This document shows positions 27,532 through 53,682 of a stretch of DNA of 60,601 bases, in pieces. The position numbers and the translations under genes were made by a program. The stretch comes from a virus: positions 9,894 to 70,494 of the IMG/VR virus record IMGVR_UViG_3300030061_002036. One strand, written 5' to 3'. The notes under the pieces were generated by a model. That model searched no databases. It saw only the letters and a program-made list of their open reading frames with translations, and was not told the DNA's origin. Positions within the stretch are counted from its first letter, which is position 1. Each line of letters starts with the position of its first letter.

Positions 27532-30087
27532 ATGGCTAAAAAACAACCAAAAAAGAAGAAGGATATTAATAAAAAGATTGTAGATGCTACTGTAAATTAT
27601 GCAACAGATCCAGTTAATCAAGCTCTGATGATGCTTGGTCCTGTAGGTATGGGAGCTGGTAAGCTTGGAAAAATGGCACTTAAAACTAAGGTAGGTCAAA
27701 AAGTTTTAAAGTCTAGTAAAGCTTTTCTATCGGATTTAAAGATTCTTAGAAATAGACAAGCGGGTTATCAAAGCGCGTTAAAGAATAGAAATGCAGCTCA
27801 GATAAAAGACTCTAAATATCTTACAGAAAAGCAAAACTCTTTAAATGCTGTAACTTCGGAAATAGATCAGCTTGAAAAATTAACAAAAAATAAAAGTTTT
27901 AATTTTAATAAGGTAAATGATTATAGTGTAAAGAAATATAATCATGGGGGAACTCATGCGTATACTGGCCCGGCTCTGCCGAAAGGTATGCCAAATATTC
28001 CCGCTCCAAGTGGAGCAACTGTTGACGCTACGGATATGAGTATATCTGCAAGAATGAAAAGAGGAGCAGATAAAATAGCTAACTTTAGCATGGCTCCTGG
28101 AGGAAGTTCTCACGGAGCTCCTACTCAAATATTAGCAGAGATGACAGGTGTACCTTCTTTATTAAGATTACCACAATCCTATAAAAATGTTAAAGAAGAT
28201 CCAAGCGGGAAAAATATATTTAAAGCTGCAGCAAATACTTTTGGGGTAATACCTGGCGCAACAGCACTTACTAAAGGTGCAGGTCCATTATTAACAAATG
28301 CTAATAGAGTATTAAAAAGTGCGCCAGTAGGTATGATAGGTAACCTGTTTAAAGCTAACAAACTTAAAGATAAGATGATAGAAGCACGGGATGGAGGAAT
28401 GAGGTATTATCAAGGAGGAGGAGTAGCATTACCAGGAGGTGAAATGCAACCTATACCAGGAAGTGATGCAGTAGAATTTGCGGGAGCTTCTCATGAACAA
28501 GGAGGTATAGAGTTAGATCCGCAAACTGAAGTAGAGGGAGGAGAAACTATGGATCAAGTTACTATGAGAGATGGAGGTAAGAGTGATTACTTTTTTTCTG
28601 AACATTTAAAACATGGGGGAATGCCTTTTTCAGCTAGGCATAAGCAAATCTTAGCAATGGGAGGAAGTCAAGAAGAAATAGATAACCTAGCGCAAGTACA
28701 AGAGCAGGCAGCTGGAAGAAACCCACAACAAGTAGCTGGAATGGGAGGTAAGCGTTTATATGCTGTTGGAGGAATAAAAGGACTGCCAGAAGATATTGCA
28801 TCTAATATATCATCTGCTTATTATAGCGACGATCCAGGAGAGATACCTAGTTTAATATCAGGAAGTCAATATTATTCTACTGATAAAAGAGGCGGAACAG
28901 GTAGTTCTAACTCTGACGATATTGAAGAGATTATTGAAAACGTTATTGAGCAAAATACGGATGCGAATGTTACAATAGAAAAGACAGATAAAAAAAATAC
29001 CAAGAAAGAGTCAGTTGTTACCAAAAAAGACGACGTAGAAGAAGTTGTTGACACAGTAGATGATATATCTCCAGTAGATAATACAAAAGAGGTTCAAGAA
29101 AATACAATAACTGATCCGGGAGTTTACGGTGATGAAGATGGTAACTATTGGAAGTTAGATAAAGATGGTAACTGGCAAGTTATGTGGAAAGGAGAGCACT
29201 CATATGAAGATGGAGCGCCTTTAGATTTAAGAAAATCTGACGGAGCTTTAAGTTTTGTAGAAGGTCTTGAGGATAAATCATCTGGAGACACAGATTCTTC
29301 TGTGCCTTATAAGCGTAGAAGGGGCTCAGTGGATGCTGTAACTGGCGCGGCAATGGCAGGACAGTTTTTACCTGCTATGCAAGCTATGTCTGAAACTCCT
29401 GATTATATAAATACACATGAGGCAGCTCCAGGTAACGTAGCTGTATCTGCTGATATAGGAAGAAAAACTCTAGATAGAGTTAATATGAACACTGAAAGAG
29501 AAAGAAACGCAGCTGACTATAGAAGTATGAACAGATTTATTGAGAATAGTGGTTTAGGTCCTGCAGGAATGGCTAATCGAATGGCAGCTTATGCAAGAAA
29601 GCAAGCAGGAGATAGAGAGATAGGGGCAAAAGAAGCTCAAATTAATGCAGGAATTTCTAACCAAGAAGCTCAGATTAATACTGGTATAGATAAACAAAAC
29701 GTTGCTAATATGATGGCAAACTCTCAGTTTAACGCAAGGCAGCAAAATGCAATTAATATGTTTAATGCAGGACAAACTTATAAAACAGACGAGTTTAATA
29801 GAGGCGCTGATGCAGCAACTAAAGATAGACGACTAATGGGATTACAATCAGCTATGACAACAATGGCTGGTATTAATAGAGATAGATTAGCATACGAGGC
29901 ACAGGATAGAATGGCGCAAGCTATATCAGGAAATACAGGAGTATTATCTAGAGAAGAGTTAGCTAGAGATTTAGCCCAAGCTTATCCAGATCTGAATCCT
30001 GGGTCTGAGGAATTCCAAAAGATGACAGAAGATACATATCTTAAAATGCTAAAGAATAATCAAAATAAAGAACAATCTAATGGCTAA
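27532..30087 (+). CDS. Large cargo/internal virion protein with PIPGSDAVEF box
   Basis: An 851-residue protein. It begins basic (MAKKQPKKKK), has a short hydrophobic helix near residue 27-40, a linker, then the conserved block EMQPIPGSDAVEFAG / SHEQGGIELD / TEVEGGETMDQV / FSEHLKHGGMPFSARHKQIL (about 305-380), which I recognise from many Bacteroidetes phage virion proteins. A low-complexity acidic region (about 460-530) follows, and the C-terminal 250 residues are helical (Asn/Gln/Ala-rich, coiled coil). Gly-Gly motifs recur throughout. Start 12 bp after the previous gene; it overlaps the next by 8 bp. Likely packaged cargo or scaffold-like; the exact role is unknown. Confidence 0.72.
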   Translation: MAKKQPKKKKDINKKIVDATVNYATDPVNQALMMLGPVGMGAGKLGKMALKTKVGQKVLKSSKAFLSDLKILRNRQAGYQSALKNRNAAQIKDSKYLTEKQNSLNAVTSEIDQLEKLTKNKSFNFNKVNDYSVKKYNHGGTHAYTGPALPKGMPNIPAPSGATVDATDMSISARMKRGADKIANFSMAPGGSSHGAPTQILAEMTGVPSLLRLPQSYKNVKEDPSGKNIFKAAANTFGVIPGATALTKGAGPLLTNANRVLKSAPVGMIGNLFKANKLKDKMIEARDGGMRYYQGGGVALPGGEMQPIPGSDAVEFAGASHEQGGIELDPQTEVEGGETMDQVTMRDGGKSDYFFSEHLKHGGMPFSARHKQILAMGGSQEEIDNLAQVQEQAAGRNPQQVAGMGGKRLYAVGGIKGLPEDIASNISSAYYSDDPGEIPSLISGSQYYSTDKRGGTGSSNSDDIEEIIENVIEQNTDANVTIEKTDKKNTKKESVVTKKDDVEEVVDTVDDISPVDNTKEVQENTITDPGVYGDEDGNYWKLDKDGNWQVMWKGEHSYEDGAPLDLRKSDGALSFVEGLEDKSSGDTDSSVPYKRRRGSVDAVTGAAMAGQFLPAMQAMSETPDYINTHEAAPGNVAVSADIGRKTLDRVNMNTERERNAADYRSMNRFIENSGLGPAGMANRMAAYARKQAGDREIGAKEAQINAGISNQEAQINTGIDKQNVANMMANSQFNARQQNAINMFNAGQTYKTDEFNRGADAATKDRRLMGLQSAMTTMAGINRDRLAYEAQDRMAQAISGNTGVLSREELARDLAQAYPDLNPGSEEFQKMTEDTYLKMLKNNQNKEQSNG

Positions 30088-32176
30088 TAAATATTCAAGA
30101 TTTGAACTAAAACCTTATGAATCTCAATATGTAGATCCAGGTTCTGTGCAAGTAGCAGGTGTATTACGTAAACGATATGACGATAATATGCAAAATTATA
30201 ATATGCTAAATAGAGCTGCTAACTCTATTAATACTTTAGAGGGGGATAGGCATATTAAACAAAATGCAATTAATAAAGTTGAATCAGATTTTCAAAGAAC
30301 TATTGAAGTTGGTAATTTTGAAAATGCAGGAAGAGTAGTAGGTGATGCAACTAATGATTTTATAGGCAATAGAGGATTACAATTAGCACAACAATCTTAT
30401 TCTTCAAGACAGCAAGAATTAAAAGTGATAGATCAATTAAGAGCTAATGGTAAACAAGTATTAGATTTTAATGAAATTAGAAATGAAAATGGAGAAGTTA
30501 TAGGGCATAGAACAGATGCTCATAGCTCTTATCATCAAGATCCTAATACAGGAAAGATGGTAGAGAATGTATATCGGCCAGGATCTGAGATGCAATTAGA
30601 CTACACACAACGTATGGAAAGTCTGTTAGCAGGAATAGCTAAGTCTGGAGGAGGTAAAATGACAAAGTCTGATATAGCTGGATATGTTAAATATATAACT
30701 AGTCAAGGAGTATCTAGAAGTAGAGCGCATAAAGTAGTTGAAGCGGCTTTAGGCGCATATATAGACACTGATGAAGGAACTCAAGATTATAGACGATTAA
30801 CAGAGATAGAAGGCATGTCTGATGGAGATGCTAAGCTAGATATGATTAACAGAATGCAAGGCGTAGTAGAAAAACAAATTGCTAGTATTACTTCTCCACA
30901 TTATATGAAAGCTCCTGAAGGAGGAAGCGGGTTTGGATATAACGGGCAAGGCTACGATTATGCAGGAGGTCAAATAGTTAGAGACGAAGGATTAGAAGAC
31001 TATACATCATTAAAAACTAATTTAAGAGATTTAACAGAAAAATTAGATACTCATCCTAAAGGTAGTGATAAGTATAATAGCGTTTTAGATGAAATTAGAG
31101 CAACAAAAGAAAAAATGACTTTAACTACAGATGCAGTTTCTCACAGTCATCCAGAAATAAAAGCAAGTTTAGAAACTGGAAACAAAGCTTTAGGGAAATA
31201 TCAAGATTTACAAAGTATGTTCTTTAATATGACTACTAAAACAGGGTGGAAACCTACTGCTTTTTGGAGTACGGTTGGAGATTTCTTTACAGGAAATATC
31301 GGTACGTTCCAGGAGCGCGGGGTTTCAAATATATGGGCTTCTGATAATGTAGAAAAAGGAAATCTTAAGTTTCTGTTTGATAGAGATGGAGTTATTGAAC
31401 ATATTAATAAAACGCACGGAACGAACTATACAGAAGCAGATTTACCAGGTATTAAAAAAGCAGCTGAAAATTATTTAGAATGGATGCAAAAAGAGGGTGA
31501 TGATACTTATGACAAAATAGATGATTTAACTACTATTAAACAGTCGGATAGAATAGTATATGCTTTGGATAATACTAAGCAGCAAAATGCTGCCAATACT
31601 CATTTAAAACAATTTCAATTTTCAGACTTTAATTTCCAATTTTCAAGTGACGACGAAAGAATTGCAGCAAAAGAGGCTTGGGACGCAGACGCAAAACAAA
31701 AAGGTGCAGAAGGAAGAAAAGACCAGATACAATTTGCAGGTATGACTATTCCGTCTTTAAATGAAACTGGAAAATTACTTTTCTATCTTAATGGTAAGTT
31801 GCACATAGCTACGCCTAAAAGTGGAGATTTAGCTCAAACTATTACTTCAGGATTATATGACAGTTTAGGAGCTACCCATATGAGTCAAACTCATGAACTA
31901 GCTCAAGCTTATGAAAGAGGAGAGCTAGATAATGGAGGATTAATTGATCAACAATTACAGCATATTTATCATCAACACACTCAAATGAATACAAGTGAAA
32001 AAGATTTTAATGCTGTTTTACAAATGCATGAGAACAGAGTAGCTAATTGGGTGCAGACAGGGCTAGGCATTACGCAGGAAGATTGGAATAATATGTCTCG
32101 AGAAGAGCAAGCTGTTCATTTCAATACATTTAGAAAACAAAAGTATAATCCAAATGTTTCTAAGACCTTACTATAA
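30080..32176 (+). CDS. Internal/cargo virion protein, 698 aa
   Basis: A mostly helical 698-residue protein that starts with a YESQYVDPG element and VLRKRYDDNMQNYNMLN, similar to the openings of crAss-like cargo proteins. No signal peptide or long membrane helix. The middle is rich in Gln, Asn and charged residues. It begins 8 bp before the end of the previous gene and ends 11 bp before the polymerase polyprotein. Position between two cargo-like proteins and the virion polymerase suggests it is packaged and ejected with them; no enzymatic motif is seen. Confidence 0.7.
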   Translation: MANKYSRFELKPYESQYVDPGSVQVAGVLRKRYDDNMQNYNMLNRAANSINTLEGDRHIKQNAINKVESDFQRTIEVGNFENAGRVVGDATNDFIGNRGLQLAQQSYSSRQQELKVIDQLRANGKQVLDFNEIRNENGEVIGHRTDAHSSYHQDPNTGKMVENVYRPGSEMQLDYTQRMESLLAGIAKSGGGKMTKSDIAGYVKYITSQGVSRSRAHKVVEAALGAYIDTDEGTQDYRRLTEIEGMSDGDAKLDMINRMQGVVEKQIASITSPHYMKAPEGGSGFGYNGQGYDYAGGQIVRDEGLEDYTSLKTNLRDLTEKLDTHPKGSDKYNSVLDEIRATKEKMTLTTDAVSHSHPEIKASLETGNKALGKYQDLQSMFFNMTTKTGWKPTAFWSTVGDFFTGNIGTFQERGVSNIWASDNVEKGNLKFLFDRDGVIEHINKTHGTNYTEADLPGIKKAAENYLEWMQKEGDDTYDKIDDLTTIKQSDRIVYALDNTKQQNAANTHLKQFQFSDFNFQFSSDDERIAAKEAWDADAKQKGAEGRKDQIQFAGMTIPSLNETGKLLFYLNGKLHIATPKSGDLAQTITSGLYDSLGATHMSQTHELAQAYERGELDNGGLIDQQLQHIYHQHTQMNTSEKDFNAVLQMHENRVANWVQTGLGITQEDWNNMSREEQAVHFNTFRKQKYNPNVSKTLL

Positions 32177-32187
32177 AACCAATATAT

Positions 32188-35100
32188 ATGTCAAATAAAA
32201 AATATCTTTGGGATTACAAAGATGCGGAGTTAGATAACAATAACCTCGAAGAGAAAAAAGAACCTACGTTTCAAGAGTGGAATGAAACTTTTCATTATAC
32301 TCCTGGACAAGCAACGGGCTTTGTAGTAGACGACAAAGAAGCAGAAGAAGTTCGTGATCTTATAAAAGATAGAGGTGCAGTACATTACGGTGCAGATGAT
32401 GTTCAAGAGTTAATAGCGGCAGATCAATCTACTGCAAATAAATGGGCCAACGCTTTAATAAAGCTTGCTCCTAAAACTTTAAATGTTGCAGTTGGAGGTA
32501 TAGCTATGTTGCCTTCAGCTATAGGGACTACTGCGGATTGGTTGGTGGGAGGACTTGAAGAAGGTGAGGCTTGGAAAGATATATATGATAACGATTTTCA
32601 CAGATCTTTAGACGGTATAAATGAGTGGTTAGACAAAGAACTTCCTAACTATTATACTAAAGAAGAGCAGAAAATGGGATTTATTAGAAGTATAGGAACA
32701 GCTAATTTTGTTAATGACTTTACTAATGGGCTTTCTTTTGTAGCTGGTGCGGTACTATCAGAACTGGCATTATCAGCAGCTACTGCAGCAACGTTTGGAG
32801 CAGCAGCACCTGCGCAAGGAGCGGGTACGGTTGGTATAGTATCAAGAGCAGCGTCTACCCTCAAAAATATTAGTAAAGGTAAAGCTGTAACTAATCCAAC
32901 TAGAGGGACTAAAGTAGCTGAAAAATTTTATAATACTGTTCCTAAGTTAGGATCAAGAATAAAAGCTGGAGGAATGCTAGGACGACGATTATTAACCGGA
33001 GCAGGATACGAATCAGGAGTCGAAGCAAGGCATCATATTGATTCTGTTTATTCTGAATTAAGTTCTGCTGAAGAAGCTAAACTGGGAAGACCATTAACAC
33101 AAGAAGAACAGGCCGACATCTACGATCTAGCTTCAGCTAGCGGTAATGCTGTTTTTACAGCTAACTTAGCTTTGGTAGGAGTAGGAAATATAGTTGCTTT
33201 TCCTAAACTGTTTGGACCTGGCTATAAAACAGCTTCAAAAAATTGGGGGAATGTTATGAGAGGGTTAAAGGGTGATTTAACATCTCCATACGTTGCCGCA
33301 CATAAAGCATGGAGTAAACAAAGAAACTTTTTAAATGCTGCATACCATGTACTTAAGCGACCGGCTTATGAAGGATTTGTAGAAGAAGGAGGCCAGTCTT
33401 GGTTAGATGTTGCGGGACAACATTCAGCAGCAGATTTTTATATGAGAGGTAAACGTCCTACTCAACTAGAGTCCGTAAAAGGATTAATACAAGGAATGCA
33501 TCAAACTGCTGTAGAAACTTTTGGTAGTAATCAAACTCAAAAAGAAATGGGTATTGGATTTTTACTTGGTGCGCTAGGTTTACCTACATATTCACGAACG
33601 CGAGGCACAGAAACTGTTGATCCTAAGACGGGTAAAAAGACTAAAGGTAAACGTGAATGGGGTATGATGGGAGGTTCTTATGGTTCTTATCAGGATATGA
33701 AAGCAGCTCAAAATAGAAGTGAAGCTTTAGCAGACTATGCTAATAAGTATCCTGATGCATTCCAAGCTTTAAAAAGTAACTTTGATTTATTAGTTAAAGA
33801 CGGAACTCTTTCTGAAGAGATGGATGTAGCTATGGCTACTAATAATATGTTTGCATGGAAGAGTGCTAAAGATGATCAATTTTTTAACTATGTAAGATCT
33901 AGAACACAAGCTGGATACTTTAACGATGTAGTAGATGATATAGAATCTATTAGACAGCTGGATAATAAAACTTTTGCAGAAGCATTTGGATACGATCCAG
34001 AAATGTCAGATACAGAACTATCTGCAAGAAAAGATAAAGTAGTAGAATCTGCTTTACGTAAGGCTAATTTAATCAAAAAGGCTAGTAAAACAATAGACAA
34101 TTTATATCAAGGGGAAAACGATGCTATAAGAGAAAGTATGGAACATGCATTAGCTTCAGTAGAATTAGTAGGAATAAGAGAAGAGTCTATATTAGATAAA
34201 ATAGATGAACTAACTGATGGTAAATTAAATCTACGGGCAAGTGAAGGTGTAAGCAAAATATTAAAAGAAACATTAGGCTCTGGTACAGTATCATTTGCAG
34301 CGCGTGCGGCGGAGATTAGAGAGCAATTAAAACAAAATAGTAATTTAGGACCTGACCACCCAAATAAATTTCCTGCAGACACTGTTCAGGAGTTAGAAGC
34401 AGCTGCGGAAATGCTAGAAAAAGGGCTTGGTGACTTACAATACTCTAACGCTGTAGATGATATAGAGTTTATGAAGAAATGGCAAGCAGAAGATCCAGAC
34501 GGATACAATGCCAGCCCGCATAGAAATGAAGTAGCTCAAATGTTATCTGATCTTAGAAAACTAAGAGAAAGAAGACAAGATGCTATTCGTATGTATAACC
34601 AGTTAAATACTAATTTAGGGGAAGCAGAGTTTAATAAACATGTAGAATACTATACTGATGCTTATGCTAAGCAAGAAAAGGCAAGACAGGAAGCTGCTAC
34701 TGAAGAAGCTGTTGAAACTCAAGATCCGCAAGCTTTATATAATGTTAATTCAGAAGCTGAGTTTATTATAAAAGATCCTAAGAACGGTAAAGATTTATTA
34801 GTAAAGTTTGCAGATAAAGATCATATCCAAGGAGTTGAAGATCCGTCAAGACGTTATAGTAGTAAATTGCTAGCAACACATTTTGTAAGAACAGCATCTC
34901 CTTCAACAGTTGAGGTAGATCCAGAACCTACAAACGAAGGAGAAATTTCTGTAGAAACTTCAGAGGAATACGATTTACCAATACGTGATCAAATAAAAAA
35001 GCCTAGCCTTGAGCATATAGGATTTGGTAAAACTGCAGGACAGATGAGTGGTGATATGTCCCCGGAGCAACAAAACTTTTACAATTACTTACACAGTACA

Positions 35101-38100
35101 ACAAACTTTTCTAATGTGGAGATAGAACTTGTCTCTCCTAAAAATAATAAGTATAGCTGGTTAGAGTTTTACGATAAAGATGATATAAAAGCTGTTGTTG
35201 TAAATAAAAAGTCAGGCACTCCTAAAAAGTTTAAGGGAGACTATGTGCATACATCTATTATGTTACCAGAATTAACTAAGGACGGCACTCCTAGATTTTA
35301 TGATTTAGACTCGTTGCCTAAAGAGTTTATTGACGCACGCGTAGAAGAGTTTAAACAGTTGCGAAAGACTGCAGCGGAAGGAAATGTTAGGCTGCCAATT
35401 ACTGGAAGGTCTGCCTTATTTGCAAGTCAGGCTACAAAAGATAATATAAATAATGAAGCTTATTATAGTATTGTAAAAAGAATTGTACCTACAAGAAAAG
35501 ATATAGCAGATGTTGATTTACGAATAGCTACTTCAAATAAAGTGCCTATTAATGCAATTGAATATAATGTAATTCCAGGTCTTCCTTTTATAGTGCATAA
35601 TCAAATGCCGATTACATTATTTAAACGAACGTTAACTGAAAAAGAAAATACTACAATTACTAATTTATTAGTAATGTATTCTCAAAATATGATTTCTAAA
35701 GATCCATCTGTTCAAGAAAATCCAGATCAAATTCTAGACAGTGCTGTTGGTCAAGGAGAGAATTTAAAGATAATAGATGCAATTAGAAGTATGATTAGAT
35801 TTGGAGGGTATAAAGATGGGGCATCTAATCCAGAATATCAAATAAAATTAACTAATAAAGGAGTGCTACTTAAAGGAAGAACTGCTTTAACTTGGAAAGC
35901 TTTAGCAAATGAAGATCCAAAAGCTATTGATAAATTAAAAACTTTTCTTAGCAATAAGATTCATGACATTAATAATAATATACTAAGAAGTAACGATGTA
36001 TATTATCATGTATCTTTAACAGAAGAAGGTTTAGATGTACAAGACTATACAAATTATAAAGAGTATTTATTAGCTCCTAGAGAGCTTACTGAGGAAATAC
36101 CATATAGAACAGCACTAGCGCCTATGTCTACTGATATGGATGCTCCACAATTTGCAGGAGGATATTTAACATTTGACATACCTTCAGCTGCTACTACGCC
36201 TAAAAAAGAAAGTACAGATAGTAGGCCTGCAGCTCAAAAAGAAGTAAATAAATTTGATACGTTTCAAAATATAATGACTGAAGGCACTGAATGGGCATTA
36301 GAAGGAGTTAGTACAAAAGGAGAGCCTAGATCTGCAAATTTTAAAGTAGTATCTCAAAATGGAGCAGCAACTGTTGTTGTACTACCTGGAGAGGATAAAC
36401 TATACTCTGCTTGGATTCAAGAAATAATACAGCCAAATTTAGTTAATCCAGATTATGCGCTAGCTAATTTTCATATAGACGTTAGAGGCATTTATGAAAT
36501 GAGTGTAGATGATTATAATAAAGTTAAACCACGTTTATATTCGAAAGAAGTTACTAGAGTTAATCCTTTTGAAGCAGTAGAAGAACAAACAGCAAATACT
36601 AGAAATGATATTAAACAAAAGGTAGAAGATGTTCCAGGTTATCTGTATAGTTATAAAGGAGTTCCAGTACTTCATAAGACTGATATTGTTACACAAGAAG
36701 GTACTCCAGGTACAGCTCAACGAACTACTTTGTTTGGCGGAGATGTTATCTATATAAATAAAACAAAAATGAAAGCTGCGTTTAAATCAAAAGCGTGGAC
36801 AACTCCTAGAAAATTAAAAGACGGTACATCTATTATACCAATACCTACAAATGCATTTCCTACATTAAAAGCTTTTGAATCTTTTATTATAGAGCATGAA
36901 TATCAACATACTCAAATAAAACAGAAGAAAGGAGAAACGATGGGAGAGTATGAAGATAGAATAAACCAGGCTGCTTTTAAAGCGTTAACACCTGAAGATG
37001 AGTCTACTGCAAATGAGAGTCCTAATCCTTTTGGACGTACTAGAAACAGACGTGCTCCAGGAGACACAAAAGCTTTAGAATCGCAACGTAAACTAAGAGG
37101 TAAGTATAAAAAAATAAACATAGCAGAAGAAAGACAATGGTTTGAAGGCAAGTTTAATATGCCATTTAATACTATGAAAGGGCTAGTATCTGGATCTAAT
37201 TACGGAGAGTTTAGACAACTAGCTGATGTTATGATTTCAGAGATGGCTATTGAAGGAACTACATTTCATGAGGCTTTTCATGTAGTACATGATTATTTTT
37301 GGACTCCAGAAGAAAAAGCACAAATATATAGAGATTATAAAAAATACACTAAACAGCCTAACATTACTAACGCTCAGATAGAAGAGGAGTTAGCAGAAGA
37401 ATTTAGACATTATATGTTAAAGGATGGATTGAGTGTAGTACCTCCTGTAAAAGGGCTTAAAGCTTGGTTTAAAAGATTATGGGATTTTATAAAATCTCTT
37501 GGTACTTCTGAAAGATATAGTCCAGAAGGGATTAGACTTGCTAATTTGTTTGAGTCTATTAGAACGACAGATTATAGGACTCCTAAACATGAGAAGACGG
37601 CACTATTAAATAGATTTCTTATATCTATTAACCCTACTACTAAAACATTAGAAGGCGCAAATGTATCAGAAACAAAAGCTATTCTTGATGGATTTGTTAA
37701 CTCTGTTTTTGATGAGCTGGATAAAGAAGAGTCTAGTTTACATTTTACTGATTTATTGAATTTAACTACTAATACAGAAGTAACAGCTGAATTTGGAGTA
37801 CTTATGCAGCATGGATTTGAAAACATGTTAGGAGTTCTAAGAAATCAAGTACAAGAACAATTAGCTGACGGCACCTGGGCAGATCGTACAGATGTTAGCA
37901 CAGCAGAACGAAATGCTGTTTATGATAATGCAGAATTTTTACAAGCTAATCAAGCAGAAATATTTGATTTGTTTACAGATTGGTTAGAAACTTTTGGCAT
38001 AAACATGGAGATAGAGTTAAATGAGACGGAAGCTACTAAAGAAAATAACTTTGGAGCTACTCATCAAGTTTTAGAAACTTCTGCAAGAGGAAATTCTCCT

Positions 38101-41100
38101 AATGTTATTAAGCTACTTATTGCTAGCTTACCTATTAATAGTGCTACTAGTACTACTATGGGACTTTACGGGCTAGTAGACTACACTAATGTATTTGACT
38201 CTTTACATAATGAGTTAGCCGGTGTTCAAGATTTTGCAGGTCAAGTGCAAGCAATAAAAAATATGGCTATGAATAGGCCTGATATTGCTCAACCTTTAGG
38301 CGTATTATTAAATAGACTAAAAGCTACTCACCAACCTTCAGAGTTAAACTTTAAACAAATCTCATTAAGAAATAAATTTATACAGCAATTTGATAAAACT
38401 AAAAATACTTATTATTTAAATTTAATTAAAGACCCTGTTACTATACACGCTACAGATTCTAATACATCAAGAACTGAAGATAAAATACGAAATGATTGGC
38501 GCTCTAATTTCAGAGAAATGGCATTATCAGAAAAAGGATTTTTTAAAATTAATGATGAAACTGGAGGAATCATACTAGACCCTAACAAAAAGTTTAAATT
38601 TGGAGCTAAGCAGGCTACTTATAAAACTCTCCCAAAATTCAAAGGGGACAGCTATTTTAATTTTTTAGACTTACTTGGAATTAATTTCACTAATAAAGCA
38701 GCATTAAAAAATAATCCAGACTTATTGACTGAGATTATGGACCATGTTATTAATATTAAAGAATTCTTTTTAAATAAACAAGCAAACGATACGGCTCTTG
38801 AAGTAGAGGATTTGTTTAGAGAAGAAGATTCAGGTATTGCAGCGCGATTAAATAAGCTAGTATCAATGGAGTTACCATATTATACTAATACAATCGAGCT
38901 ACAGCATATTACTCCAGAAGGTAAAAGAGCATATGGTATTACATTAGGTAATTTTATGACTCGAGTAGCTAACTCTTTAAGTAGAGGAGTGGTTCCTAAG
39001 TATCTGCAAGATGCGGGTACTACTGTTAGTGGTTCTAAGTGGCTTGAAACGGTGCAAAAAGGAGGCGGAATTAATGTAGTTATATTAGAAGGGGCTACAG
39101 AAGATGAGAAAGGCTCTACAGGAAATGTTACTAAAAATTTAACACCTACAGATAGAGATGCAATGTATATTAATAATACATTAAATGGTAGGTATCCAAT
39201 GCTACAAGCTTCTGAAAAGAAAACAGTATTTGGATTTGAAATACTAGATAAGAAAGGTGTAATAGGAGCGCGTAAGATAAATAGGGCTAGATCTATTTCT
39301 GATTTATTAGGACATCTTAAAAATGAAATAGAAATTACTTTAAATCTTGTTAGAGACAATAAAGGGAATGATATAAAAGGATTTAAAAATACAGCTAGAG
39401 GTTTAAGAGCTTTTGATTATTTAAATGCTATGCCTTTACCTGGAGGCAAGACTCTGATAGATGTTTTACAAGATGAGTTTGGGACTATATCTGCTGATGA
39501 AATAATGAAACAAAATTATACTCTTTTTGCGGGAGAGGTTGCCTTAAATGTAGATAAGCATATAGAAGAAACTACAGAAAGACTTATTAAAAATGGCATG
39601 CTTAAAATATATCCTAGCGGATTAATACATTTAAAAGGAATAGATGCTGAAACCTTTGGTAAGACTTTAGGACTGACACGTCCTACTAATAAAGAAGGAA
39701 ATAAAATAGATTATAAACAAGTTATTGGAGAGAAGTTAAAACTGACTCCAGAAGAGCTTAGACAATTTGTAGAAGCATTTGTTTTAAGAGACCAGTTATC
39801 AGCTTTAGAGCAATTAAAATTGTTCTTTGGAGATTTAGCATTTTTTACTGAAACTTCTCTATATAAAAGAACTGCAGGTCCTCATGGAGTTAAGAAGTTT
39901 GCTATTACAGGGGAGTTTATTTCAGATTGGCTTAATCAAAATATTAAAAGATTTGATAATAAAATAGCTGACGATAGGGTGCGAACTATAATGTTAAGAG
40001 ATGTAACAGCTTCTTCTCAATATTATAATGAGTATGCAAAGTTAGTTGGACCTGAAATAGCTGATGCTTATCTTAATTATAATGAGGCAGATGCTCAAGG
40101 ATTTATAACAATAGATGAGTATATTGAATTCTTAACAAGAACAAGTGATATAACAGAGAAACACTTAGATTTATATCAGAAAGTGCAGGAAGGATTACCA
40201 TTAACTTCTGAGGAAATGATTTATTTTACACCTTTAAAACCTCAATATTATGGGCCTTCAGAAGCTGAGGGTATGTATAGTCCTGCATATTATAAACTAT
40301 CTTTAGCTGTACTCTTACCGCAAATGCTGCAACGAGTGAATCCTAAGAATGGAATAATGGAAGAAACAGCCTTAGCACGTTTACATGAAGATATGGTTAA
40401 TAATCAAGTAGGTATAGCTGTATTTGAAAGTGGTATTAAAATTGGAGGTAAAGTTGATCCGGCATCTGGATTGTCGCAAAGGTTTTATAATAGAACAGGG
40501 GAGTATTCTAAAATGAATCCAAATAATATCCAAACATTATACTATGATTATTTAGGAGTACAAGTAGATATGGGAACTGCAGTTAAAGATAAATCTTCTT
40601 CAGGAACACAACGTAGGGCTTTAATATTAGCGAATCTTATGGAGAATGGGAAGGGGGATGAGAGTACTGTGAAGAGTTATAATGATGCGCATAATGCTAT
40701 GACTAACCATAACTTTCAAAACTTTGTACATAAACTAGGGTTTAAAGCTGATTCTGAAGCAGAAAATGGATATGTACAAGTAGCAGATGCTGAATACTTA
40801 AAAGAAGCTTTACTAAATGAGACTCGCCAAAGGAAATTAAATGATAATGAAATGGACGGGCTAGAGCTATTATTAGAAAGTGAAGACCAGTTTCTAGAAC
40901 TTGTTAGTAATAAACCCGCATTAGATAGTGTATTACATTCTTTATTTGCACGAGATGTAATAGAGAAAAAACGTTTTGGAGGAGCATACGCCCAAGTATC
41001 TTCTACAGGATCAGAGATAGCATCAGAGGGAAGAGGTATAACATTAAAGGCTATGAAACAATCCGACCATAGTTATGGTTCTAACACATCGCCTCTTAAA

Positions 41101-44100
41101 TTTTATAGAATGTCTAAAGACGGAAAAAGAGTATTAGGCATGGAAGTAATGCTTCCGCACTATTTTAAAGAGTTTTTAGGGAATGAAATACGTGTTATTA
41201 ATAATCAGATTGTAGACGCCGACGGAAATGTAATTGCAGGTAAAGAGTTATTAGATATTTTTGCCTTTAGAATTCCTACAACAGGTTTAGGTACAATAGA
41301 AGTTATAAGTATTAAAGGGTTTTTACCTAAAGAAGCAGGAGAAGCTGTTATGACGCCATCAGAGATAGTAGTTAAATCTGGATCAGATTATGATATAGAT
41401 AAACTTACTTTAATATTTCCTAACTATACTGTAATTAGAGAAGGTAACGCTAAACGCTTAGTTAAAATTCCTTATTTATCTGAGAAGATAGAAGATTTAG
41501 AAAAAGTACAGGCTCTTCGTCGTTATGACAGGCCTACATATAAAAGATTTATAGAAGAGGCGGGATTAAAAGAAGGGGATGTATTTAGAAAAGCATTTGA
41601 TGACATAAATAAAGAATTAAATAAATATAAAAAAGATTTGTTTGATTTATATAATACAGAAGAAGTAGCTAAACTAGATGGAAAAATTTCTTTATTAAAA
41701 GAAGACCGAGCAACAGCTAAAACAGCTAGTAAACGAAAACTTATTTCTAATCAAATTGAAGATTTAATTATGGATAAGATGGCTATAGTGTCTGGCTATA
41801 CTAACCAAATTTATAAAATTGAAGAGAGTTTTAATGAGTTAGATAAAGCATTAGCAAAGTCTTCATATTTTAAATCTTTGCCTAATGAGTACAAAAATGC
41901 TACTAAAGCCTTAGAAAATAGAGAGATTGATATATCACGTGATATAGCTACTAGACCTGAAATGCTTGCACAGCTGTTACGTCCTACAGGAGCTGCTAGA
42001 TTAGAGCAATTGGCGGATAGATTATCTCTTGATACTGGTATACCTTTACAAGAAGACCTGTCTTATAATTCTATTTTAGGATTTAATCATAGACAAAATA
42101 TGGGACAAAGATTTTGGGAAGGTAAGGCAGCTTTAGGTATAGCAGCTTTAGAAAATACTATGCACGTAAAAATGCAGCAAACTAACGCAACTCAAACAGT
42201 TACAGATGCAAATTATAAATTTGCAGAATTACTACAATTTGAGGAAGAAGATTCTTTCGAAAGGGATGAGAAATATAAAGAGATGAAAGCAAAGATAGCC
42301 GCCCAATACGGAGAGGCAGACAAAACATACGTAAACTATTTAGGATTCAGTAAAGATCAAGGAAAAACAGGATACTATGTTAATGAAATGCTAGGAGAAT
42401 TTGTTAATGCTTTTGTTGACGTAGCTAATAAACCGTTTGTATATGGATTAAATGCAAATATGGAAACTGCCAATACAATATTTACTTTATTACGTAAAGG
42501 AATGAGTATAGATACAATAGGTACATTTTTAATGCAGCCAGCTTTAAGAGATCTTACCGCTGAAGTTCCAAAAGCTAAGTCATTTATTTTAAACCTTAGT
42601 AGGAAAGACATAGTAGACAATATTTATAATAAATATGAAGATATAGCAGGTAAGGAAAGACTTGATCCGCAAGAGATTCATATAGAACAATTACAACGAG
42701 GATTAATGATGGGCAGAGATTTCGAATCTCTTAGCAAGCAACAACAACAAACATTTGGAGCGCTTCAATTAGCTGTTCTTGACATGTATAAACAAGCAAG
42801 ACTAGATGCTCGAGATGTTAGTCAAGTTACTTCTGCATTGGCTTATGATACAAATCCGCCTATGAATAGAATGGCTGCAAAAATAAAACAATTAAAATTG
42901 CAAAAGATTGGGGCATATGGATTTAAAACTGGGTTTTCAGTAGATATAGGAACTTTAACAACTGACTCATGGATGTCACAAATGGTTACAGCTACAAATG
43001 AAATCTTACCTTTATATAAAGATTTCTATTTAGTAGATACAAGCCCTATTGTAGAGAGAATGTTAGATGAAATAATAAGCAAAGCAGCATATAAACCAGA
43101 GCATGATCTAATAGCAGCACTAAATATACTTGAACATGATTACGTAACGTTTTTACTGTCAGGACTAACTGATTTAGAATCAGAAACTTCTCAGTTATTG
43201 CAAGGACCAAACAGTGTAGCAAGAAGATGGAGAGCTTTCCAAAAAGCAAATCCTGATAATTTATTATCTAAAGAATTATTTTCAGAATTACAAATACATA
43301 AAGATCCAAAGAATTTAGGATATAATATAGATGGTGTGAGAGCATTTGCAAGAAAATTACCTGCATTAGAGTCTAATTTATTGACAGAAGCATTTATGGA
43401 GCTATATAATGGATCTCCAGCACATAGAGATTTAGCAATTGATTTAATGAAAGTAGCTATACTTCAATATGGCATGAATAAATCTCCAAGATCATTTATG
43501 AGGATTGTTCCAGCTGGACTATATTCTAAAATAGCTAAGGAAATGGTTGATGAGTATAAGATTAGTAGATCCTTGGAGAGCAAGGGAATTATCAGTTCAG
43601 ATACCGCGGACGATATGGCATTTTTAGACCAATTTCCAAAAAATAATTGGAATAACGATATGATAGTTCCTACTGTTAGACCTGTATCCTTGACACCGGA
43701 CATGTCTGAAGAAGATATGAGAAACGCCTACCCAAGAATGGAAGATGGTGTATTATATATGAGGGGAAGAGATGCAACATATGTAAAGACATGGGTAGTA
43801 GATCCTAGTATTTCAGAAGAGAAAAGAAAAAGGTTAGAAAAGGCCGGTAAACGATTACCTGTAGTTGCTAGATTATTTAAAGCTATTCCAGGTTCTCCTG
43901 AAGACAAATTAGTTGCATATAAAAATGTTCCTAAATTAGGAAATGGAGTTAATTTAAAAGAATATAGTCTTAATTCTCAAAAGTCTTCTATTATTAATTT
44001 AAATAATGACTTAATAGGGTCTACTACTGAAGTTAAAACACAAATAAAAGATACACGAACTCCTGAAGAAAAAGTATTTGAAGGAAATATTTTTGATTTA

Positions 44101-44541
44101 AATGGTATTCCAGTAATTCCTATTAACTTACAAGGGGATCATGCAGATGGAATAGCACTTCAAGCTAAAAAATTAAATCTAATACAAGACAAGTTTGATA
44201 ATTCATATCAAGCAGGTAATACAAATAAGATAAATAACTTTACTCGAGGTAGATTAATTATAACTGTCCCTATTAAGGGTTCTGCTACTGCCCCTATTAA
44301 TCTAGAGCTTCTTAGTAAAGGAATGGCCAAAGTGGCAGCTATTGCAAAAGCAAATCCAAATCAGAAAATTTTAGTACCTTTGTCAAGAGATAGTAATACA
44401 CTTATTGATGATATTATCCCTGTCTATAAAAAATTAATGACTTCTAGTCCAAATATAAGTATAGTATTAGCTTCTACTAGTAACTTAACACAAAGAGGCA
44501 TTGAAGATAATGAAGTAATTAAAAAACTATTAAATTGTTAA
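32188..44541 (+). CDS. Giant virion RNA polymerase polyprotein with two HExxH metalloprotease-like motifs
   Basis: A 4117-residue protein. Residues 95-250 hold Ala-rich hydrophobic segments as in ejected cargo. Two zinc-metalloprotease signatures follow: HEYQH at 1570-1574, and HEAFH at 1694-1698 with a Glu-rich LAEEF element 40 residues later. The polymerase core shows R-I-P-T at 3028-3031 followed by SGSDYDIDKL (D3067, D3069, D3071), the metal-binding DxDxD of double-psi beta-barrel RNA polymerases as in phi14:2 gp66. C-terminal residues about 3970-4117 resemble a macro-like domain (NLQGDHADGIALQAKK). Likely packaged and ejected to transcribe early genes. It is roughly double the 2180 residues I recall for gp66, suggesting fusion with other cargo. 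The AACCAAT leader before its ATG resembles the minus-strand leaders only weakly. Confidence 0.82.
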   Translation: MSNKKYLWDYKDAELDNNNLEEKKEPTFQEWNETFHYTPGQATGFVVDDKEAEEVRDLIKDRGAVHYGADDVQELIAADQSTANKWANALIKLAPKTLNVAVGGIAMLPSAIGTTADWLVGGLEEGEAWKDIYDNDFHRSLDGINEWLDKELPNYYTKEEQKMGFIRSIGTANFVNDFTNGLSFVAGAVLSELALSAATAATFGAAAPAQGAGTVGIVSRAASTLKNISKGKAVTNPTRGTKVAEKFYNTVPKLGSRIKAGGMLGRRLLTGAGYESGVEARHHIDSVYSELSSAEEAKLGRPLTQEEQADIYDLASASGNAVFTANLALVGVGNIVAFPKLFGPGYKTASKNWGNVMRGLKGDLTSPYVAAHKAWSKQRNFLNAAYHVLKRPAYEGFVEEGGQSWLDVAGQHSAADFYMRGKRPTQLESVKGLIQGMHQTAVETFGSNQTQKEMGIGFLLGALGLPTYSRTRGTETVDPKTGKKTKGKREWGMMGGSYGSYQDMKAAQNRSEALADYANKYPDAFQALKSNFDLLVKDGTLSEEMDVAMATNNMFAWKSAKDDQFFNYVRSRTQAGYFNDVVDDIESIRQLDNKTFAEAFGYDPEMSDTELSARKDKVVESALRKANLIKKASKTIDNLYQGENDAIRESMEHALASVELVGIREESILDKIDELTDGKLNLRASEGVSKILKETLGSGTVSFAARAAEIREQLKQNSNLGPDHPNKFPADTVQELEAAAEMLEKGLGDLQYSNAVDDIEFMKKWQAEDPDGYNASPHRNEVAQMLSDLRKLRERRQDAIRMYNQLNTNLGEAEFNKHVEYYTDAYAKQEKARQEAATEEAVETQDPQALYNVNSEAEFIIKDPKNGKDLLVKFADKDHIQGVEDPSRRYSSKLLATHFVRTASPSTVEVDPEPTNEGEISVETSEEYDLPIRDQIKKPSLEHIGFGKTAGQMSGDMSPEQQNFYNYLHSTTNFSNVEIELVSPKNNKYSWLEFYDKDDIKAVVVNKKSGTPKKFKGDYVHTSIMLPELTKDGTPRFYDLDSLPKEFIDARVEEFKQLRKTAAEGNVRLPITGRSALFASQATKDNINNEAYYSIVKRIVPTRKDIADVDLRIATSNKVPINAIEYNVIPGLPFIVHNQMPITLFKRTLTEKENTTITNLLVMYSQNMISKDPSVQENPDQILDSAVGQGENLKIIDAIRSMIRFGGYKDGASNPEYQIKLTNKGVLLKGRTALTWKALANEDPKAIDKLKTFLSNKIHDINNNILRSNDVYYHVSLTEEGLDVQDYTNYKEYLLAPRELTEEIPYRTALAPMSTDMDAPQFAGGYLTFDIPSAATTPKKESTDSRPAAQKEVNKFDTFQNIMTEGTEWALEGVSTKGEPRSANFKVVSQNGAATVVVLPGEDKLYSAWIQEIIQPNLVNPDYALANFHIDVRGIYEMSVDDYNKVKPRLYSKEVTRVNPFEAVEEQTANTRNDIKQKVEDVPGYLYSYKGVPVLHKTDIVTQEGTPGTAQRTTLFGGDVIYINKTKMKAAFKSKAWTTPRKLKDGTSIIPIPTNAFPTLKAFESFIIEHEYQHTQIKQKKGETMGEYEDRINQAAFKALTPEDESTANESPNPFGRTRNRRAPGDTKALESQRKLRGKYKKINIAEERQWFEGKFNMPFNTMKGLVSGSNYGEFRQLADVMISEMAIEGTTFHEAFHVVHDYFWTPEEKAQIYRDYKKYTKQPNITNAQIEEELAEEFRHYMLKDGLSVVPPVKGLKAWFKRLWDFIKSLGTSERYSPEGIRLANLFESIRTTDYRTPKHEKTALLNRFLISINPTTKTLEGANVSETKAILDGFVNSVFDELDKEESSLHFTDLLNLTTNTEVTAEFGVLMQHGFENMLGVLRNQVQEQLADGTWADRTDVSTAERNAVYDNAEFLQANQAEIFDLFTDWLETFGINMEIELNETEATKENNFGATHQVLETSARGNSPNVIKLLIASLPINSATSTTMGLYGLVDYTNVFDSLHNELAGVQDFAGQVQAIKNMAMNRPDIAQPLGVLLNRLKATHQPSELNFKQISLRNKFIQQFDKTKNTYYLNLIKDPVTIHATDSNTSRTEDKIRNDWRSNFREMALSEKGFFKINDETGGIILDPNKKFKFGAKQATYKTLPKFKGDSYFNFLDLLGINFTNKAALKNNPDLLTEIMDHVINIKEFFLNKQANDTALEVEDLFREEDSGIAARLNKLVSMELPYYTNTIELQHITPEGKRAYGITLGNFMTRVANSLSRGVVPKYLQDAGTTVSGSKWLETVQKGGGINVVILEGATEDEKGSTGNVTKNLTPTDRDAMYINNTLNGRYPMLQASEKKTVFGFEILDKKGVIGARKINRARSISDLLGHLKNEIEITLNLVRDNKGNDIKGFKNTARGLRAFDYLNAMPLPGGKTLIDVLQDEFGTISADEIMKQNYTLFAGEVALNVDKHIEETTERLIKNGMLKIYPSGLIHLKGIDAETFGKTLGLTRPTNKEGNKIDYKQVIGEKLKLTPEELRQFVEAFVLRDQLSALEQLKLFFGDLAFFTETSLYKRTAGPHGVKKFAITGEFISDWLNQNIKRFDNKIADDRVRTIMLRDVTASSQYYNEYAKLVGPEIADAYLNYNEADAQGFITIDEYIEFLTRTSDITEKHLDLYQKVQEGLPLTSEEMIYFTPLKPQYYGPSEAEGMYSPAYYKLSLAVLLPQMLQRVNPKNGIMEETALARLHEDMVNNQVGIAVFESGIKIGGKVDPASGLSQRFYNRTGEYSKMNPNNIQTLYYDYLGVQVDMGTAVKDKSSSGTQRRALILANLMENGKGDESTVKSYNDAHNAMTNHNFQNFVHKLGFKADSEAENGYVQVADAEYLKEALLNETRQRKLNDNEMDGLELLLESEDQFLELVSNKPALDSVLHSLFARDVIEKKRFGGAYAQVSSTGSEIASEGRGITLKAMKQSDHSYGSNTSPLKFYRMSKDGKRVLGMEVMLPHYFKEFLGNEIRVINNQIVDADGNVIAGKELLDIFAFRIPTTGLGTIEVISIKGFLPKEAGEAVMTPSEIVVKSGSDYDIDKLTLIFPNYTVIREGNAKRLVKIPYLSEKIEDLEKVQALRRYDRPTYKRFIEEAGLKEGDVFRKAFDDINKELNKYKKDLFDLYNTEEVAKLDGKISLLKEDRATAKTASKRKLISNQIEDLIMDKMAIVSGYTNQIYKIEESFNELDKALAKSSYFKSLPNEYKNATKALENREIDISRDIATRPEMLAQLLRPTGAARLEQLADRLSLDTGIPLQEDLSYNSILGFNHRQNMGQRFWEGKAALGIAALENTMHVKMQQTNATQTVTDANYKFAELLQFEEEDSFERDEKYKEMKAKIAAQYGEADKTYVNYLGFSKDQGKTGYYVNEMLGEFVNAFVDVANKPFVYGLNANMETANTIFTLLRKGMSIDTIGTFLMQPALRDLTAEVPKAKSFILNLSRKDIVDNIYNKYEDIAGKERLDPQEIHIEQLQRGLMMGRDFESLSKQQQQTFGALQLAVLDMYKQARLDARDVSQVTSALAYDTNPPMNRMAAKIKQLKLQKIGAYGFKTGFSVDIGTLTTDSWMSQMVTATNEILPLYKDFYLVDTSPIVERMLDEIISKAAYKPEHDLIAALNILEHDYVTFLLSGLTDLESETSQLLQGPNSVARRWRAFQKANPDNLLSKELFSELQIHKDPKNLGYNIDGVRAFARKLPALESNLLTEAFMELYNGSPAHRDLAIDLMKVAILQYGMNKSPRSFMRIVPAGLYSKIAKEMVDEYKISRSLESKGIISSDTADDMAFLDQFPKNNWNNDMIVPTVRPVSLTPDMSEEDMRNAYPRMEDGVLYMRGRDATYVKTWVVDPSISEEKRKRLEKAGKRLPVVARLFKAIPGSPEDKLVAYKNVPKLGNGVNLKEYSLNSQKSSIINLNNDLIGSTTEVKTQIKDTRTPEEKVFEGNIFDLNGIPVIPINLQGDHADGIALQAKKLNLIQDKFDNSYQAGNTNKINNFTRGRLIITVPIKGSATAPINLELLSKGMAKVAAIAKANPNQKILVPLSRDSNTLIDDIIPVYKKLMTSSPNISIVLASTSNLTQRGIEDNEVIKKLLNC

Positions 44542-44545
44542 CTTT

Positions 44546-45199
44546 ATGGCATTAACCGATTATCAGATTACATATTTAACCGAAGAATTTAGAGTATTAT
44601 CTCGTGAAGAGTTAAATAGTCTTAGAGCAGAAAATCCAAAAGCATATACTGAATATAATGGATGGTATGATTTATTTTTATCTAATCAAGATATTTTTGA
44701 AACTGCTGTAGAAAGATACGGGGTAACACTTAGAGATGATGAAGGAGAAGCTTTACCTCCATCAGATCCAGACTTTCAAGCCTTTGAAGATATAATTGAA
44801 ACTTCTGCATCTGAAGTTCTTGGAGCGGCTCAAAAAGCAAAATCAGTTGAACAAAATATTAAAAAAACACTAGGTGAAGAGTCTGATATAGAACAGTATA
44901 GTGATAATCATTTTCTTATTAAAAGAGAGCCTAAACTTCTTCGAGCGGAAGATAAAATTACTCAAGTTCAAATTACAGCTGCAGAATTAGCTACTGTTTC
45001 TGGTCTTCATAAACGTAAATTATTAGACGCTCGTGCTAACTATGATCCATTTGTTTCTGTACCTGTAACAGATTCAGCCGGAAATGTAACATATACTATA
45101 TCAGATGATGCCTTAATCTCATTTGTAGAAACTATGGAAGTTTCTTCGATTGTTAAGGAAATTAAAAATGAAAACTACAAGAATAAATATAATAGATAA
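44546..45199 (+). CDS. Hypothetical protein between the two giant cargo genes, 217 aa
   Basis: A 217-residue, acidic, mostly helical protein. It has a central predicted coiled coil (about 85-120) and a small beta segment around KLLRAEDKITQVQI. No signal peptide or membrane helix. It starts 4 bp after the polymerase polyprotein and ends in a TAATG overlap with the nuclease-containing giant protein, so all three are probably made together. A packaging, chaperone or linker role for the giant proteins is plausible but unsupported by any motif I know. Confidence 0.7.
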   Translation: MALTDYQITYLTEEFRVLSREELNSLRAENPKAYTEYNGWYDLFLSNQDIFETAVERYGVTLRDDEGEALPPSDPDFQAFEDIIETSASEVLGAAQKAKSVEQNIKKTLGEESDIEQYSDNHFLIKREPKLLRAEDKITQVQITAAELATVSGLHKRKLLDARANYDPFVSVPVTDSAGNVTYTISDDALISFVETMEVSSIVKEIKNENYKNKYNR

Positions 45200-48100
45200 T
45201 GGCGTGTCCTAATAAAAATCATCCAACCTGGAAAAATTTAGTAGCTAAAGTAGGTGAATATGAAGCTATGTCTTTATATATGCGTAATGATGAAAGCACC
45301 CCTAGTATAGGAAGAGATTTAAAAATACCTAAAAGCGGCATAGTTTCATATCAGCAAAAAATAAATATATTAAAAAGAATAAGGCCGTATAATACTAAAT
45401 TAGGGACCGGACACAGAGTAAAATTTATTCCTACGGGAGAATCTTATGAAGGAAAAAGAGAATACACATATGTAATTACAATTGAAGAAAATTGGAAAAG
45501 AAATAAAGATAGTCAAATGGCTTTATTTCAAGATAAAGCAGACCAAACAAAAGAACGAAACGAAAGAATTGAAGATTCAATGAGAGTGTTCTTAGACACT
45601 ATTGGAGTTGATTATCAAACTGTTGATCAAATTACTGATCGAGACGGAAATGCTTTAGGATTTGCAGCTAAAGCTGATATGCTTAATAAAGTTGTTGAAG
45701 TAGTTGAAGATAAAGCTGGAATTGATACTTTACCAGAAGAGGCTGCGCATTTCTTTGTCAATATCTTAGAAGCTGAAGGAGACCCTTTATATCTGTCATT
45801 GTATAATAATATAGATAAATATAAAGTCTTTGATGAAGTTGTAGAAAATCCAAATTATCAAAATTACTCAGAGGAAATGCAACGTAAGGAAGCTATTGGA
45901 AAAGCTATTGCAAAACATATAATAGGAAATGACAGTGATGCAGAATTATCTGATAACTTATCTAGATTACAAAGGTGGTGGATTAAACTCTTAAACAAAA
46001 TAAAAAAATTCTTTAATAAAACAGTTGATGATCCATATAGAACAGCTGCTTTGAACATGCTAAATAATGAAGTTAATCAAAATGCTGCAGAATTAATAAC
46101 TGAAGAGCAAATAGAATTAGGAGATCTATATCAAGATTCTCCGCAGGACAAACAGGCAAATGTTAAGAAATTACTTGACGAAACGGAAACAGATTTAGAA
46201 ATGCGTTTACGAGATAATGAAGAAATAGCAGCTACATCTAAAGCTATACTAGATCTTCCGGAAGGTAAACAAACTAGTATGTATTACAGCCGTAGTCGAG
46301 GATCATTTGTTCAAGGAAGAGTTTCTCACATGGCTCAAGAAAAGCTTATTAAAAAGAAAGGTAAGCAATGGATGAGAGAAATTAACCAAAGGCCAGTAAA
46401 TGAACACAAACGTACTCAAGGTACTGTGCATCACTCTACTATGCAAAATTTAGTAGACTTTTGGAGAGATTATACTGGAGCTAATAAAGAAGCAGAAAAT
46501 AGACGATTAGAAGCTATAAAAGAAGCTGCTACTAATGTTGAAGGTTTAAAGATAATGACTAAAGAGCAATTTGCTATCTTATCAACTAATGTTAAGAAAA
46601 TTATAGGGGAAATTAAGAAACAGCAAAAAGAAATAGATCCTAATGGAAAGGCTGATATACGATCAGAAGCAATGTTATATGCTCCTGCAGAAAAAAGAGG
46701 GTTATATTATGGGGATACGGCAGGTACAGTAGATTTATTAGCTGTCTTTTCTGACGGCTCGGCATCTATTTATGACTGGAAATTTATTAGTCCGAGCCAA
46801 ACAGCTGGATTTGGGCAAAAAAGAATGATAAGAGAAACGCCTTTCAGGTCAAAAGAAGATGGATATAATATGCAAATAGGAGCATATAAAAATATTCTTC
46901 AAAATTTTTACAGAGTAAAGAAAGTTAGACGTACAAGAATAGTTCCAGTACATGTGCAGTATAAATGGGTAGGTAAATCAGGAGAGAAAACTATGTCTCC
47001 TGTAGTAGACACGCTTAAGATGGCTTACGATTTACAAGTAGAAGACGGTAAATTTGTAGAAGTAACAGGAGATCCATATTTAAAACAAATACCTGTAGCA
47101 GATGAATTAACAGATAAAAAGGGACTAGATAAGATCTTAAATCAAAAAATTCAAGAAAGAGCTGTTTTAAAAACAAAAATTGAAACAGAAAAAGATGCTC
47201 AGAAAAAACAAAAATTAAGAATAAAATTAGAAAAGCGGGATCTAGCAATTAAGGAAATGCAACGTTCAGGAGATTTATACAATCTTATAGCGGATGCAGC
47301 TGCTACTATAGTAGAATTAGAAGATAGACTGCCTATTACTGATAAAGAGGATGTGAATTATATTCAATTTGATGAATTAGAAGATTTTGTAAGAGATATT
47401 TCATCAGGAGTTTTACTAATAGGAGATTCTACTGAATATCTAAAAAATTTAGAAGATAAAGAGCTTAAAGATAAGTTAGAAGACGTAATGGATAGGTGGG
47501 CTAAACCGCTAAATCAAATGTATGACACATTACGAGATTATAGAAGTTTAAGAATTCAAGAGTTGGGAGAATCTAGAGGTATAAAAGATGTAACTAGGCC
47601 TCAAAGAGAATATGGATTTGGTAAATGGTTTGAACAATCTTCTAGTAGTCTACATCCTATATTTCAACTCGCAAGAGATCATGTAGAAAGAGCTAATAAT
47701 GAGGCTCGAATTAAAACAAAAGAAGTTTATGAAGAAATAGAAGTTCTTAGAAATGATATAAAAGAAAAATCCGGCTTAGGGTTACAAGAAGCTTATGATG
47801 TAATGTTTAATACTGAGACTGGTAATTTACATCCTCGTATTACAAAAGAATTTTGGGAAAGAAAAAAGAAAGCGATTGAGGAAAATGATTCTAATTGGAT
47901 GAAAAGAAATTATAAATTAAAATCAGACGCACAGAAAAGATATTTAGAAAGACGAAAGAAATTTTTTGCTTATGTAGATAGGAATTTTGCAGATTACCAG
48001 GCTTTGTATAAAGACCAAAAGTTAGTTACTCCTCGAAAGAGTCAAAAACAGATGCGTGATAGATTAAAAGCTCAGTGGGAAGCCAAAAATAATATTAAGC

Positions 48101-53662: not shown

Positions 53663-53682
53663 AATTAATAATTTAATTGGTT
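53663..53682 (-). promoter_or_regulatory. AACCAATTAAA leader motif before rIIB
   Basis: On the minus strand the leader reads AACCAATTAAA, then 9 nt of A/T, then ATG (motif at 53672-53682). It overlaps the stop codon of the SplB-like gene. The same 11-mer occurs at the same distance before two other genes of this block, so it is probably a translation-initiation or expression signal. Confidence 0.6.

Follow-up and report, generated by a model that had tools for sequence, protein, structure and literature searches.

The open reading frame at positions 32188..44541 on the plus strand of the window (the whole 60,601-nt stretch analysed here, positions 9,894–70,494 of the 89,487-base IMG/VR virus record IMGVR_UViG_3300030061_002036) very probably encodes one giant virion cargo protein, in which a C-terminal RNA polymerase of the gp66 type follows an N-terminal gp47/gp67 cargo half bearing two metallopeptidase-like motifs, and which would be packaged, ejected and used to transcribe the early genes. 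Judged by homology, the gene is a gp67–gp66 fusion: the cargo protein gp47/gp67 accounts for approximately the first 1850 residues and is joined to the gp66 polymerase, and the gp65/gp49 partner is encoded separately downstream. The fusion explains why the protein had been described as about twice the usual length, since the two proteins of Cellulophaga phage phi14:2 are specified by two genes of 1797 and 2180 codons, together 3977 residues. The frame starts with ATG, runs for 4117 codons without an internal stop and is also intact in the full record. The first-pass annotation had placed RIPT at residues 3028–3031 and the aspartates of DYDID at 3067, 3069 and 3071 of this single frame, and these positions are exact; the two other motifs of relevance, HEYQH and HEAFH, start at residues 1570 and 1694.

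The window represents most of the genome of a crAss-like phage, which the sequences of its terminase and capsid protein assign to the Crassvirales. TerL, encoded in the same record outside the window, aligns along almost its full length with Crassvirales terminases at 40–42% identity, and the major capsid protein (MCP) is approximately 32% identical to its counterparts in the order. Gene order around the fusion is also of the crassvirus type, with cargo genes followed by giant transcription genes and then a strand switch. Directly upstream, in the position of the crassvirus cargo genes, a 698-residue protein is encoded on the plus strand (30080..32176), and its place is kept in the related loci L012, L013 and L037. 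Downstream on the same strand, a 217-codon frame without clear family (44546..45199) precedes the gene for a 1656-residue RNA polymerase-associated protein (45199..50169), a homologue of crAss001 gp49 (profile match E=1.1e-47) that also matches gp052 of phage cr108_1 (E=5e-101). The gp65/gp49-like gene adjoins the polymerase core gene in many loci, and the order cargo, gp67–gp66, gp65-like is conserved across the relatives compared. A search of the window against Rfam gave no match. Further along, the minus strand of the window encodes a 286-residue radical-SAM protein of the spore photoproduct lyase family (53681–54541; PF20903, E=9.5e-29), which is thus crassvirus-encoded, and a 926-residue protein (54529–57309) with a weak match, below the curated cut-off, to GHKL/HSP90-type ATPases (PF13589, E=0.00054).

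The polymerase half, from about residue 1850 to 3865, is, on the evidence of sequence and of a structural model, a crAss-like virion-type enzyme of the gp66 family, in which a single chain forms the two barrels of a DNA-dependent RNA polymerase. Its catalytic part, residues 2515–3865 (39730..43782), is homologous to phi14:2 gp66, which phmmer recovered among all solved chains (PDB 6vr4, E=2.8e-25) through two blocks, residues 2515–3100 aligning with gp66 861–1407 and residues 3387–3509 with gp66 1602–1728. A profile of residues 2920–4117 built with 27 environmental relatives had 6vr4 as its sole match (E=1.3e-65), colinear over gp66 1243–2100. The same structure was the only one below 0.001 when the AlphaFold model of residues 2920–4117 (mean pLDDT 67.6) was compared by Foldseek (E=3.7e-22, probability 1.00). 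The two-barrel fold is accordingly supported by the model for residues 2920–4117, and the upstream barrel by the alignment of residues 2515–3100 with gp66 861–1407. These results bear out the proposal of the first-pass annotation that a crAss-like virion RNA polymerase with a double-psi beta-barrel metal site is present, and the structural comparison with gp66 that it had suggested returned gp66 itself. The metal-binding motif DYDID (residues 3067–3071; 41386..41400) aligns with gp66 D1361/D1363/D1365, and R3028 and P3030 of RIPT (41269..41280), together with D3067, D3069 and D3071, are invariant in both an alignment of nine Crassvirales polymerases and one of 28 sequences. A Crassvirales genome and the gene order expected for the gp66 family were both found; in contrast, homology to the T7-like, N4-type single-subunit virion polymerases was not seen, 6vr4 being the sole polymerase recovered by phmmer and by profile. 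The N-terminal part of the polymerase region, residues 1850–2490 (37735..39657), is conserved among the loci and on its own gave no profile match to any solved domain in the PDB. Scans of the protein against Pfam and PHROGs were almost blank: the N-terminus hit a single PHROG, and no model of a polymerase was recovered; matches to FliL, occludin and TIMELESS_C were discounted as due to chance or composition. No relative emerged when viral contigs were scanned with the whole protein; the relatives discussed here were recovered with an alignment of the polymerase core.

The other end of the protein belongs to a family of known virion proteins. Residues 60–640 (32365..34107) form a crassvirus cargo module with profile matches to crAss001 gp47 (E=8.8e-130), phi17:2 gp39 (2.4e-123), cr85_1 (6.9e-121), phi14:2 gp67 (3.4e-79) and crAss002 (1.4e-61), and the N-terminus also matches phrog_32390 (E=2.1e-43). 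Three moderately hydrophobic segments are apparent from hydropathy in this module, at residues 100–120, 181–201 and 322–342. In crAss001, gp47, gp49 and gp50 were found in virions by mass spectrometry, and gp47 was named RNA polymerase-associated cargo protein (PMC10172136); similarly, the phi14:2 record annotates gp65–gp67 as virion proteins from MS/MS, so that both halves of the fusion have homologues detected in virions. The epsilon group, which includes phi17:2, is reported to be without the transcription block (PMC7886860), and the presence of the module in phi17:2 indicates that it has a role independent of the polymerase.

Between the cargo module and the polymerase lie two candidate metallopeptidase domains. 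The second of these, a zincin-like domain at residues 1641–1744 (37108..37419), has HEAFH at 1694 and EELAEEF at 1733, that is, an HExxH motif and the conserved downstream EExLAEEFR; it was found and aligned in 72 loci, and crAss001 gp47 carries HEAFH at residue 2157. The predicted order of its elements (helix, three strands, HExxH helix, Glu helix; pLDDT approximately 90) is that described for the zincins of phage polyvalent proteins (PMC5512222). A fold search of the PDB with the model of residues 1230–1870 gave nothing significant, the best peptidase-type match being PprI at E=0.67, and against a viral library the significant named matches were nearly all to crAss-like or other phage giant proteins. 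Peptidase activity of this mid region is a prediction from the motifs and the order of secondary structure. In many fused polymerases (L029, L033, L038, L042–L044, L046, L047, L050, L052, L056, L074, L082, L083 and others) HExxE replaces HExxH and the rest of the zincin-like domain is conserved, which possibly reflects an altered metal site or an inactive enzyme. The first candidate, at residues 1482–1599 (36631..36984), has HEYQH at 1570 and EYEDR at 1587. The H, E and H are invariant in an alignment of seven sequences, together with a downstream G.YED..N, and the domain is modelled with a pLDDT of approximately 90; it had no match in the PDB, and its relatives weakly match DUF4344, a ‘putative metallopeptidase’ family (E=0.05–0.09).

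The mobility of these domains is relevant to what the zincin might do. The HEYQH domain is C-terminal in other polymerases (L053, L054, L063, L070, L078, L080, L081) or lies in a neighbouring gene (L034), and in contigs from Sphaerochaeta, Mollicutes and Bacilli MAGs (L100, L101, L109) the zincin-like domain is a small separate gene of 201–253 codons upstream of the polymerase. It is conceivable, if rather unlikely, that the zincin-like domain rides on the polymerase chain for delivery and, once injected, acts as an effector on host proteins; this mobility and the polyvalent-protein precedent (PMC5512222) speak for such a role, and against it are the lack of a significant peptidase fold match and of evidence for a substrate or activity.

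The favoured reading is that the whole chain works as cargo. By analogy with its relatives, it would be packaged in the capsid beside the portal, ejected through the tail at least partly unfolded, the N-terminal module going first or aiding passage across the membrane, and refolded in the host to transcribe the early genes, the product of the separate downstream gp65/gp49-like gene acting as its partner. Packaging near the portal, ejection by way of the tail and early transcription are the most likely course given what has been described for related phages (PMC10172136; PMC10136315). The first-pass annotation had called the protein a polyprotein, a term that finds no support here, as evidence of processing is lacking and the giant virion RNA polymerase of phage N4 is packaged unprocessed (PMC5512222). 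A true polyprotein would be one in which the zincin-like domain or domains cut between the cargo and polymerase halves, before packaging or after injection, to release gp67-like and gp66-like products. In its favour, other crassviruses make the homologues as a pair of separate chains, the polymerase tree shows switches between fusion and splitting, and zincins have been proposed as autoproteases in polyvalent proteins (PMC5512222). However, the zincin is kept in crAss001 gp47, where the halves are already separate, phi14:2 gp67 is without any HExxH, a large set of fused relatives has HExxE instead, and the N4 polymerase that escapes processing has a similar domain. Self-cleavage is consequently an improbable alternative to an uncleaved cargo chain.

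The protein ends in an extension of approximately 188 residues (3930–4117; 43975..44538), which is common only to L012 and L013 among the relatives and had no match in the phage records searched. A GIALQAK stretch and two Foldseek matches to DarG-type macrodomains (E=3.7–3.9, not significant and in a low-confidence region) raised the idea of a macrodomain. The sequence tests lent that candidate no support: a Pfam scan of the segment, a genome search with PF01661 and the PDB profile were all negative, as was hhalign, a weak test given that the comparison reading frames included only one real macrodomain protein. We consider very improbable a more elaborate scheme in which environmental crassviruses inject a single chain that combines a cargo module for crossing the envelope, a metallopeptidase or two, the RNA polymerase and, within this subclade, a C-terminal macrodomain-like extension, with the zincin cutting its own chain at a fixed point in the infection and the extension countering a host defence such as DNA ADP-ribosylation.

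As a fusion, the protein is in large company. A single frame comprising the N-terminal module, the zincin and the polymerase is present in at least 30 other contigs, a count of frames not cut at their 5′ end among loci chosen by similarity to the 4117-residue protein, which applies to that selection rather than to Crassvirales as a whole; the complete versions are 3638–5107 residues long. Other related loci have the zincin and polymerase only, or split genes. Genes are split in the gut phages sampled and fused in most of the environmental group. When fusion was mapped onto a quick maximum-likelihood tree built from the polymerase core, nine changes were required, at least seven of them forced by well-supported branches, which is far fewer than in shuffles. 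The fused state is hence clustered on the tree, yet has been gained or lost several times. Giant crAss-like polymerases of up to approximately 6000 residues have been called a hallmark of the group in a review (PMC10136315). The suggestion that the polymerase is fused to further regions, with several modules on one chain, therefore stands, but not the exceptional character that it implied, because the extra half is the known gp47/gp67 and the fused form is common among environmental relatives; recognising it is good annotation and not a surprise. Relatives in which zincin and polymerase are joined also occur in large contigs of cultured bacteria, Hymenobacter sp. M29 (L118, 3638 residues, with the N-terminal module) and Spirosoma oryzae (L124, 3356 residues), which suggests that elements of this kind exist in integrated or plasmid-borne form. 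Polymerase relatives with the DxDxD motif are found in records titled archaeal MAGs (L102, CP070803.1; L114, QCWD01000004.1), reflecting either a binning error or an archaeal element.

The same comparison leaves hardly any room for an assembly or frameshift artefact that joined two genes. Frame breaks do arise in such contigs, as the near-identical pair L053 (split) and L054 (fused) demonstrates, but the closest relatives, L012 (4425 residues) and L013 (4424 residues), come from separate metagenomes and have the same uninterrupted arrangement at a core identity of about 41–45%, and the fused frame is common to 30 loci, which for practical purposes refutes an artefact. That DYDID sits in an unrelated protein and merely resembles a polymerase motif, a reading that has only the shortness of the motif to commend it, is ruled out by the three matches to 6vr4; RIPT and DYDID are far beyond chance: R3028, P3030 and the three aspartates are invariant in the Crassvirales alignment, and the flanking stretch of approximately 590 residues aligns with gp66 861–1407.

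Collectively these results add a crAss-like virion polymerase that is both divergent and fully intact and is covalently linked, as in many environmental crassviruses, to the gp47/gp67 cargo protein. The repeated switching between fused and separate forms suggests that, during delivery, the two halves share a compartment and work jointly, and fused forms could help to work out the sequence in which the cargo proteins exit the particle. The conserved zincin-like domain, for its part, is a putative enzyme of phages that rank among the most abundant known.

Several known systems resemble the fusion in part. Thermus phage P23-45 gp96 is a 5002-residue virion protein that likewise combines a two-barrel RNA polymerase with metallopeptidase and membrane domains (PMC10770324); unlike our protein, it is a tape-measure protein with the polymerase at its N-terminus, and it was not detected by sequence here. 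Flavobacterium phage Fpv1 has a 4401-residue ‘structural protein’ whose polymerase lies close to the C-terminus and whose gene neighbours one of 1596 codons, but core identity is only 23%, and the N-terminal module and zincin were not detected. The IMG/VR crassviruses L012 and L013 share the fused order, the C-terminal extension and the downstream gene, and differ in that the HEYQH domain was not detected. In the uncultured phage cr108_1 (gp054/gp053/gp052), zincin and polymerase form one frame and the separate gp052 corresponds to our 1656-residue protein, whereas the N-terminal module was not detected and the gene is split within the GSD|YDID motif by a group I intron. That intron (L002, NC_055878.1, 21805–22123; RF00028, 80 bits, E=9.6e-21) lies between GSD and YDIDK, and in the deposited record the two polymerase exons are listed as gp054 and gp053, hypothetical proteins unrelated to one another. 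Carjivirus communis (p-crAssphage) also has a giant catalytic polymerase annotated as fused, KP06_gp44 (4070 residues), and a zincin on the RNAP-associated gp45, annotated ‘RNAP associated protein fused to zincin protease’; there the record describes the catalytic protein as joined to an ‘unknown RNAP subunit’, with the zincin protein encoded on its own, the reverse of the arrangement in our phage. In crAss001, gp47 corresponds to the N-terminal module plus the HEAFH zincin, gp50 to the polymerase and gp49 to the 1656-residue partner, but the three are separate genes and gp47 is on the opposite strand. Phage phi14:2 has two genes in place of one, a gp67 devoid of HExxH and no C-terminal extension, whereas in other respects it is alike: gp67 matches the N-terminal module, the gene order is cargo–gp67–gp66–gp65, and gp66 (6vr4) is colinear with residues ~2515–3865, with a motif of the SGSD(F/Y)DIDK type common to both.
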